58,980 nt of DNA from Deltaproteobacteria bacterium RIFOXYD12_FULL_56_24 (GTDB lineage: Bacteria > Desulfobacterota > Desulfobulbia > Desulfobulbales > Desulfurivibrionaceae). The position numbers and the translations under genes were made by a program. The DNA lies in assembly GCA_001799285.1 (NCBI GenBank), contig MGTD01000048.1, positions 1 through 58,980 on the forward strand, in the 5' to 3' direction. This document shows, in pieces, positions 22,614-50,162 of the stretch. Within the stretch, counting starts at the first letter, position 1. Each line of letters starts with the position of its first letter. The notes below the pieces were generated by a model. The model worked only from the letters and a program-made list of their open reading frames with translations. It ran no database searches and had not been told where the DNA came from.

Positions 22614-22793
22614 GTAACCGATCACGGGGTAAACCTATAAAGGTCAAATAACCAAGGAACAAGTGGGCACAGGGTGCCGCAGATTGCGGCAAGCGGGACG
22701 GCGATGCGTACTTTTGTACGTGAGCCGGACCGATCGCCGCTGTCAATCGTCGGCAGAAGTGCCGACAACATGTGGTGCCCTGTGATCGCTTAC
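22614..22793 (+). mobile_element. IS66-type MITE, copy 1 (180 bp, 8-bp target duplication)
   Basis: Termini GTAACCGATCAC and GTGATCGCTTAC are inverted repeats. The element is flanked on both sides by the same 8 bp, CGTTGTGG (22606-22613 and 22794-22801), a target-site duplication. GTAA termini and 8-bp duplications are the hallmarks of the IS66 family. It encodes nothing. A 40-bp internal block is identical to copy 2 at 37274-37481. The rest of 22591-22999 holds no gene. Confidence 0.88.
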
Positions 22794-37273: not shown

Positions 37274-37481
37274 GTAAGCGGTCACAGGGCACCACATCTT
37301 GCGGCGATCGGTCCGGCTCACGTACAAAAGTACGCATCGCCAACCCGCTTGCCGCAACCTGCGGCACCCTGTGGCCGTTTTTAGTTGAGTTGAGCAGCTT
37401 GTCTGCTCAAAACGAAACTTATACCCGAAGGGTGGTTTCGTGGTTATTTGACCTTTGTGGGCTTCCCCGTGATTGGTTTAC
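37274..37481 (-). mobile_element. IS66-type MITE, copy 2 (208 bp, 8-bp target duplication)
   Basis: Inverted relative to copy 1. Termini GTAAGCGGTCAC (37274-37285) and the inverse of GTAAACCAATCAC (37469-37481). The 8 bp AGGGGCTC occurs directly on both sides (37266-37273 and 37482-37489). It shares the 40-bp core with copy 1 and carries about 30 extra bases containing a small hairpin. It sits between the adaptor and pump genes of one operon. Confidence 0.88.
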
Positions 37482-43634: not shown

Positions 43635-44674
<1,040 letters not shown>

Positions 44675-44704
44675 TACCTTCGCCAATATTATTTTAGATA
44701 AATT

Positions 44705-44883
44705 GTAACTACTCAGCTTGATGCCGGAATTAAACAAAAGCCACAGAATGTAACTGCTCCGTAGTGCCGCAGATGCGCGTGTCAGTCGTCGGCAGAAGTG
44801 TCCGACCAAGAGGCCTGCGAAGTGTGCTGTTCGCACATGAGCAGGCCGATGACAAAGCAGATGTGGTGCTGCTGAGCAGTTAC
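44705..44883 (+). mobile_element. IS66-type MITE, copy 3, between nifH and nifI1
   Basis: 179 bp with termini GTAACTACTCAGC and GCTGAGCAGTTAC (inverse, 12 of 13 match) and an 8-bp direct repeat GATAAATT on both sides (44697-44704 and 44884-44891). Internal sequence is largely different from copies 1 and 2 but shares GTGCCGCAGAT and TCGTCGGCAGAAGTG with copy 1 and the block near GCCTGCGAAGTGTGCTGTT with copy 4. Non-coding. Confidence 0.88.
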
Positions 44884-44944
44884 GATAAATTTCAAAATTA
44901 CCGGTCAGGTGACAGCACCCGCCGGCAAGCATGGAGATACGGCT

Positions 44945-45298
44945 ATGATGATTATGATTCGATCAATTATTCGCCCTGAAAAGGCAGATGCAGTTTTGGC
45001 GGCTCTCATGGATGCGGGTTTTCCGGCCGTCACCAAATATGCCGTTGCTGGTCGCGGCAAACAACGCGGTATTAAAATCGGCGAGGTCACCTATGACGAG
45101 CTCCCCAAGGTCATGCTGATGAGTGTAGTCAATGCGGCAGACAAGGACTTCGTCATTCAAACCGTAATGGATACGGCCCGCACCAAAGGCAAAGGTGCAT
45201 TTGGTGATGGTAAGATTTTTGTCAGCGAGGTGGAGGAAGCCTACACCATTAGTTCAGGTGCCAAGGAGGCCGCCGCCTCAGAGGGGGTGCCGGCATGA
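44945..45298 (+). CDS. nifI1: Nitrogenase-regulating PII protein NifI1
   Basis: 117 aa from ATG 44945; GGAGA precedes it. PII fold: MIRSIIRPEKADAVLAALMD, then the NifI1-type T-loop region GRGKQRGIKIGEVTYDELPK, which lacks the uridylylation tyrosine context of GlnK, and KGKGAFGDGKIFVSEVEEAY. NifI1 and NifI2 together bind the MoFe protein and block it when 2-oxoglutarate is low, that is, in ammonium. It overlaps nifI2 by 4 nt. Confidence 0.94.
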   Translation: MMIMIRSIIRPEKADAVLAALMDAGFPAVTKYAVAGRGKQRGIKIGEVTYDELPKVMLMSVVNAADKDFVIQTVMDTARTKGKGAFGDGKIFVSEVEEAYTISSGAKEAAASEGVPA

Positions 45299-48879: not shown

Positions 48880-50022
48880 GTGACCATTATTCCTTTTCCC
48901 GAAACCAGGCAGGGCTGCTGCTGCAGTATTCCCGAGTGGCTTAGCCTGCCGGTGGCCCCCCAGGCTGCGGCCAGGATTCGTTTTTGCGGCGAGGACAAAC
49001 TGCCCCAGGCGGTTTCCCTGCAGGGGGCGCTTACCTGGCTTGCGGATCTGGCGGCCCAGGGAAAGACCATCGCCGGTCTTGATCTCAACGGCCCTGGAGA
49101 CCCTCTGGCCACCCCGGCCATGACCCTGGGGATTCTGGCCGGCCTGCGGGAGCATTATCCCGGATTGTCCGTGGGCGTAACGACCATGGGGCTTGGTCTT
49201 GCCGAGCAGGCCGGTTTATTGGCCGAACACGGCGTTGCAAGGGTTACTCTGCTGCTGGATGCAATCAGCCCGGAAACGGTCAAAAAGATCTACACCTGGA
49301 TTAGGCCGGGCAAGCGGAGCATTCCCTTGGCAGAGGGGGCGGATATCCTGATTACGGAGCAGACCAAGGGGATAGCCGCCTGCAAGGCGGCAGGCTTTAC
49401 GGTTTGTATCCGGACCACGGTGTATGCCGGAATCAATGAACAGGAAGTGGAAGAGATTGCCCGCCTGGGTTCCGCCCTCGGGGCGGAGTCCATTAGTCTG
49501 CTGCCCGGCAAGGGCTGGCTTGATCCGGAAGTGAAACTGCTGCCGCCTGCGCCGGAGGTAATGGCGGCGCTGATCAGGAAGGTTGCTGGGCAGATGACCG
49601 TGGTCTGTCTGCCGGAAGAGGCGATTTTAGGCGAGGCTGTGCCCAGGTCCGGCAAAAACGGCCCTGGCCTGCCCAAGCCGACAGCGGCCAGGCCCAACGT
49701 GGCCGTACTCAGCTCCAATGGCATGGATATCGATCTTCATCTCGGCCAGGCCATTAAGGCCCTGATCTATGGCTCGAGGGAAGACGGTCTGGCCTGCCTG
49801 CTTGAGGCCAGGGATTTGCCCGAACCCGGCAACGGCGACAACCGCTGGTTGCAGGTGGCCGAAATCCTGGGGGATTGTTTTGTCCTCCTCGCCACCAGCG
49901 CCGGACAAAAGCCGCGGGAGATTTTAAGCAGCCACGGTCTGGCGGTGCTTTTGCTGGAGGACAATGTCGAAGGTTCGGTTGATGTATTGTATGGCGGCGG
50001 CAGGAAAGGGAAAAACAGGTAA
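48880..50022 (+). CDS. NifB-NifX-like protein lacking the radical SAM cysteine triad
   Basis: 380 aa from GTG 48880 behind GAGGAGGA. It follows NifB clearly: GLDLNGPGDPLATPAMT, VTLLLDAISPETVKKIYTWI, GADILITEQTKGIAACKAAG and VYAGINEQEVEEIARLG. NifB's C-x3-C-x2-C (VAPACNIQCNYC) aligns with VAPQAAARIRFC here, so two of the three cluster cysteines are A29 and I33 and only C36 remains. It should not bind the radical SAM cluster. Residues about 275-375 (NVAVLSSNGMDIDLHLGQAI) form a NifX-like cofactor-binding domain. Its TAA stop lies within the terminus of MITE copy 4. A carrier or scaffold for cofactor precursors is plausible. Confidence 0.85.
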   Translation: MTIIPFPETRQGCCCSIPEWLSLPVAPQAAARIRFCGEDKLPQAVSLQGALTWLADLAAQGKTIAGLDLNGPGDPLATPAMTLGILAGLREHYPGLSVGVTTMGLGLAEQAGLLAEHGVARVTLLLDAISPETVKKIYTWIRPGKRSIPLAEGADILITEQTKGIAACKAAGFTVCIRTTVYAGINEQEVEEIARLGSALGAESISLLPGKGWLDPEVKLLPPAPEVMAALIRKVAGQMTVVCLPEEAILGEAVPRSGKNGPGLPKPTAARPNVAVLSSNGMDIDLHLGQAIKALIYGSREDGLACLLEARDLPEPGNGDNRWLQVAEILGDCFVLLATSAGQKPREILSSHGLAVLLLEDNVEGSVDVLYGGGRKGKNR

Positions 50023-50162
50023 CTATCGAGCAGCACCGCATCTGCTTCGGAGTCTCGCAGGCTTGCTTACTTGTCATCGGCCTGCTTGTGTGCAACAGCA
50101 CACTTCGCAGGCTTCTGCCTGGCAGATACGACAGCAGCGAAGCGGCGCTGCTGAATAGTTAC
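50019..50162 (-). mobile_element. IS66-type MITE, copy 4 (144 bp, no target duplication seen)
   Basis: Termini GTAACTATCGAGCAGCACCGC and the inverse of GTAACTATTCAGCAGCGCCGC match at 18 of 21 positions. The core around GCCTGCGAAGTGTGCTGTT is shared with copy 3, in the opposite orientation. Flanks (AAAAACAG and CATCACAA) differ, so this copy is older or rearranged. Its first bases provide the stop codon of the NifB-like gene. Confidence 0.8.

Follow-up and report, generated by a model that had tools for sequence, protein, structure and literature searches.

Whether an element lodged within a nitrogenase operon has become part of its regulation is the question raised by the gap between nifH and nifI1 in the window (the whole stretch of DNA analysed, 58,980 nucleotides). 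Here, nifH (positions 43844-44674, + strand; TIGR01287) is followed by a PII-type gene in the NifI1 position (44945-45298, + strand), an order shared by the 28 relatives (15 congeners) in which a single stretch holds a readable nifH-nifI1 gap. An earlier note had described a recent MITE insertion between the two genes, with an intact 8-bp target duplication, and had proposed that its RNA structure sets the ratio of NifH to the other products.

The MITE is 179 bp long (44705-44883, + strand), has GTAA...TTAC ends, beginning GTAACTACTCAGC and finishing GCTGAGCAGTTAC, and is 96-98% identical to 179-bp copies elsewhere. It is enclosed by an exact 8-bp target-site duplication, GATAAATT (left copy 44697-44704, right copy 44884-44891, both + strand). 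Its three-armed layout consists of a left end A, a spacer and a hairpin (B/core/B'), in which an internal repeat is paired to the right end around a conserved core. At the left, the terminal inverted repeat A (GTAACTACTCAGC, 44705-44717, + strand) is complementary to the right end at 12 of 13 bases; the internal repeat B (GTAACTGCTCCGT, 44750-44762, + strand) forms the 5' side of the hairpin stem, and the right terminal inverted repeat B' reads GTAACTGCTCAGC on the - strand (44871-44883). Comparison of long and short copies placed an optional module of approximately 27 bp (TGTCAGTCGTCGGCAGAAGTGTCCGAC) at about 44780-44806 (+ strand), which distinguishes 179-bp from 151-152-bp copies. From the nifH stop codon it is 30 nt to the MITE and 22 nt to the duplication; 61 nt separate the MITE from nifI1, whose start lies 54 nt past the right duplication. 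These spacings replace the 31 and 62 nt given before. The span first given, 44697-44945, starts with the duplication and runs too far at the other end: the MITE stops at 44883, and 44945 belongs to the nifI1 start codon.

With its 179 bp (<500 bp), the element carries no coding ORF and no transposase gene, and an Rfam covariance-model search of it returned no match up to E = 1. Together with the inverted ends, the fixed-length duplication and dispersed copies with corresponding empty sites (the pairs L216/L292 and nif/L072), these features are those of a MITE, and the ends, the copies and the exact GATAAATT pair confirm the original description of the insertion.

The family is numerous. At least two other 179-bp copies, 98% and 96% identical, have their own exact 8-bp duplications (CGGTTTTT and GAAAGATC), and the 3.0-Mb Desulfobulbales-type genome contains at least 117 matches to the core (reversed control pattern: 0) and 240 end motifs (control: 4). 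The census was built on sampled genomic stretches and 40 of 213 candidates were scored, so that all copy numbers are lower bounds. Copies fall into length classes of 151-152 bp and 179 bp, set apart by the hairpin module of some 27 bp; sister families combine other cores with the same ends. The window itself contains a full copy of a sister family (22614-22793, + strand; duplication CGTTGTGG) and a decayed one (37274-37388, - strand). The family was found in all 16 congeners searched, and those contigs with the core that bear a name belong to Desulfobulbaceae or deltaproteobacterial MAGs; the exact core pattern was not found in viral contigs.

In a sample of 76 full copies of this genome, the flanking 8-mers agreed at 8/8 positions in 32 and at 7/8 in 17 (49/76 together), a level reached by mismatched flank pairs (7-8 of 8) in approximately 0.1% of cases. 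Flank identity was 0.71-0.80 at each of the eight duplication positions and 0.25 just outside. These duplications bear on whether the repeat is a transposon at all. A structured or REP-like RNA spread by recombination would account for the conserved fold, which is paired in 98.7% of cells (shuffles 95.5%, at most 96.0%) with two-sided changes at 9 pairs, and for the older copies, which are hairpin-only and REP-like; however, REP-type repeats leave neither the 8-bp duplications found in most full copies nor precise empty sites, and this origin is scarcely credible. The same duplications led us to reject an IS200/IS605 or REP/RAYT origin. An attC-like site, considered because the hairpins come after stop codons, is likewise opposed by the target duplications. 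The arms of the MITE do not fit the R'/R'' core consensus of attC sites.

Two side observations concern the make-up of family copies. One is a hairpin module of 27-28 bp (TGTCARTCRTCGGCAG...CCGAYAA) that is found on one side of the core loop or the other, and in one case by itself (L019, L026, L030, L036), as if it were exchangeable or itself mobile. At L009/L245, in this same genome, the left arm and spacer of a MITE encode the C-terminal residues of a gene product (TIQLKAKK*), a small transposon-derived protein tail.

Assignment of the family to a mover was based on its ends and duplications. IS66 elements are recognised by GTAAGCG ends and 8-bp direct repeats (PMC11946415). The family end sequence is GTAACYGTTCASC; the nif copy starts GTAACT and sister copies start GTAAGCG, beginning exactly GTAAGCGTTCAGC, and the 8-bp direct repeats are present both in the nif copy and throughout the family census. 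IS66 and its derived MITEs thus share with the family inverted ends starting with GTAA and an 8-bp target duplication, and IS66 copies of the same order have 11-12 of 13 terminal bases in common with family copies. One of these elements (L112, 2414 bp) has perfect ends, GTAACTGTTCAGG / GTAACTGTTCAGGTCA, and an 8-bp duplication, ATTTTATT; it agrees with the right end of the nif MITE at 11 of the first 13 bases. The family differs from IS66 in lacking an internal transposase, none having been found in the genus, in its three-armed layout, with the right end base-paired to B, and in its outer ends, A and B' being alike for no more than about 13 bp. Inverted repeats of IS66 measure 20-30 bp; the pairing of B to B' extends across about 21-22 bp. 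An autonomous partner with the same ends was not found in the genome, similar ends being confined to the same-order IS66 elements; a relic MITE does not need such a partner today. Because the IS66 transposase (PF03050) gave 0 matches in this genome and the 16 congeners, we infer the mover rather than observe it: the transposase may have been lost, may be missing from the assemblies, or the mover may be of another family.

The age of the insertion was assessed from the relatives, in which the MITE occupied 0 of 28 nifH-nifI1 gaps. In a relative of the same family (L072; NifI1 94% identical) the gap reads ATTTTAGACAAACT...ACCGG, an orthologous empty site; its counterpart in the window reads ATTTTAGATAAATT, then the element with GATAAATT, then TCAAAATTACCGG. 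The congener G007 also has a perfect single-copy empty site for L216, a further family copy that bears a duplication. NifI1 identity between congeners is about 77-84%, the genus itself being diverged. Judged from these comparisons, the nif insertion is lineage-specific and recent relative to the genus, and the notion of a recent event holds in the sense that it came after the split from the relatives examined.

Transcription of the operon bears on how the MITE could act. A sigma-54-like promoter (TGGCAC-N5-TTGC, one mismatch) lies 5' of nifH at 43748-43763 (+ strand), with nifA divergent from nifH; matches to the pattern are about as frequent in the window as expected by chance, and the site is supported by its position. 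No second sigma-54-like site was found between nifH and nifK, and no promoter was found inside the MITE. With its sole sigma-54-like site upstream of nifH, the operon leaves nifI1, nifI2, nifD and nifK dependent on read-through. This weighs against the MITE attenuating nifI1I2DK as a partial terminator of transcription, since all the downstream nif genes would have to be reached through it. The strong GC-rich hairpin would suit a terminator, and related copies (L033, L146, L186, L195) that acquired A and T runs resemble an intrinsic terminator; the nif copy has no T-run (U-tract) 3' of its hairpin, so that the hairpin-then-T-run signature of an intrinsic terminator is absent from the coding strand, and no terminator-like site was found on the + strand. 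Attenuation, one of the two mechanisms suggested in the earlier note, is therefore disfavoured in a strong form, and we consider the terminator very improbable.

The strength of the RNA structure itself, as first proposed, is borne out. The B-core-B' RNA (44750-44883) folds at -77.6 kcal/mol versus -45.2 for shuffled sequences (z -8.8; 0/200 shuffles as good), and its outer stem is very stable and near-continuous. The MITE was inserted 5' of a native hairpin (CCGGU-CA-GGUG-ACAG-CACC-C-GCCGG, 44901-44925, + strand) that is intact 3' of it and has the same fold at the same place in L072 (CCGGC-C-GGGC-AUGC-GCCC-U-GCCGG), where the inner stem differs by two two-sided pair changes. Retention of the native hairpin by compensatory change is suggestive, as the comparison comprises two sequences and the z-scores are modest (-0.9 for the stretch in the window, -1.5 for the L072 gap). 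Gap hairpins of unrelated sequence are frequent (z below -2 in 7 of 28 relatives), and their recurrence would fit a useful structure at the nifH-nifI1 position. In the nifH-nifI1 gap of L092 (G037), another unrelated repeat, a GTTAGC-type tandem array, forms a long hairpin (z -5.5).

Such structures make a post-transcriptional role conceivable, in which RNase III cutting or an exonuclease stop at the MITE would let nifH mRNA outlive nifI1I2DK mRNA and so yield NifH in excess. The stable outer stem and the apparent compensatory conservation of the hairpin after nifH would accord with it, as would two precedents: the Correia MITEs of Neisseria, which are cut by RNase III (PMC10969869, PMC2229807), and the nif1 cluster of Anabaena, where processing and stem-loops serve nifH stability (PMC4284476). 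The latter matches loosely the premise that the insertion occupies a usual processing spot, since the mapped processing site and stem-loop of Anabaena lie 5' of nifH, not 3' (PMC4284476). Against an adapted regulator, every relative examined does without the MITE, the gap already has a native hairpin, and the nif copy is young and outside the arrangement that the family preferentially retains. By analogy, a role in NifH stoichiometry is possible, and a real effect on nifH decay is still conceivable because the hairpin of the MITE far exceeds the native one in strength; overall, we regard the regulator as unlikely.

The explanation that we favour, and hold to be quite probable, is that a non-autonomous IS66-type MITE entered the nifH-nifI1 spacer through an 8-bp staggered cut and that it is near-neutral, not an adapted regulator. 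An IS66-type transposase, the putative mover, would have made the cut in one lineage. The insertion left the nif operon intact, as the MITE lies between genes and is without a terminator, and the MITE is presumably transcribed within the nif message, given the single upstream sigma-54-like promoter. Any effect of its RNA hairpin, which adds to the native hairpin downstream, is probably modest at most: nifH mRNA may be shielded at its 3' end, or RNase III may cut the hairpin.

The arrangement preferred by the family emerged from the placement of its copies relative to genes, which were called by a simple codon-usage script. For copies with B' facing a gene 3' end (L210-L289, L122-L201), the right end B' was counted as being at the stop codon when it lay from -4 to +10 nt relative to it, and expected counts presume uniform placement within the same gaps. 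B' was at the stop codon in 43/61 copies of this genome (16.3 expected, p < 1e-4), and the count for other MAGs was 44/59 (19.2 expected). For the A end there was no excess (7 versus 6.9 expected in this genome; 6 versus 5.3 in other MAGs). At offset -4, the GTAA of the MITE itself provides the stop codon.

The excess grows with age: 8/18 among copies with a perfect duplication (4.5 expected), 10/15 with 6-7 of 8 duplication positions, 18/21 among full copies without a duplication and 51/66 among copies with a decayed A end, a class in which A ends were sometimes missed (L262 actually has an intact duplication, CCATAAAA). In the congener G007, 0/15 insertions with a duplication versus 7/18 without one were present at the same gene end (one-sided hypergeometric approximately 0.007, hand-computed). 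Because the youngest copies are nearer expectation and the share rises in older classes, targeting of stop codons by the transposase is disfavoured; differential retention fits the pattern better, and suggests that retention is selective. Four apparently orthologous copies, those with A and T runs mentioned above, follow a gene ending ...ATC GAG CA(A/G) TAA; the runs were gained at the stem base, and the copies now resemble bidirectional intrinsic terminators.

Both kinds of copy occur in the nif operon. The copy after nifH is young (8/8 duplication) and opposite in orientation to the favoured class, with A facing nifH at 30 nt and B' facing the nifI1 start; by age and arrangement it is outside the preferentially kept class. 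A second, older copy (50019-50162, - strand) belongs to the favoured class: its GTAA end forms the stop of a nifB-like gene (48880-50022; AAC AGG TAA). It is absent at that site in two congeners, G007 and G011. We put forward, tentatively and as somewhat less than an even chance, that the family gives rise to transposon-derived gene 3' ends, old copies being selected in one orientation at stops, where they often contribute the TAA and, after it, a conserved hairpin; the family would then be an oriented 3'-UTR element across the genus, and the two nif-operon copies would represent two stages.

Known MITEs offer partial likenesses. Chunjie of Geobacter uraniireducens, as cited in PMC10969869, is 178-235 bp long with inverted ends, direct repeats and many decayed copies, and lies within an operon; that operon serves phosphate uptake, not nitrogen fixation, and the likeness is one of description, not sequence. 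QMITE2 of Coxiella burnetii is about 190 bp long, with direct repeats of 7-9 bp and a stable hairpin, and also has REP-like truncated copies, mostly within 3' untranslated regions; its host is unrelated, and the lines on QMITE2 in PMC10969869 mention no orientation-specific abutment on stop codons. Correia/NEMIS elements of Neisseria are hairpin MITEs of 100-155 bp found in transcripts and are a model for RNase III processing; their ends differ (by description, not sequence), and their function has been demonstrated experimentally, whereas any function of the present family is conjectural.

The nif insertion is real, recent and IS66-type, and the MITE is of a kind already known; the retention of family copies at stop codons is the more interesting lead. 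The insertion is a well-documented MITE in a nitrogenase operon with gene order intact, for which relatives without the MITE form a natural control. If the MITE hairpin alters nifH mRNA decay, transposition could be a way of tuning nifH stoichiometry. The age-graded, orientation-specific enrichment at stop codons would make the conversion of mobile elements into gene 3' ends testable within one genus, with many copies per genome.
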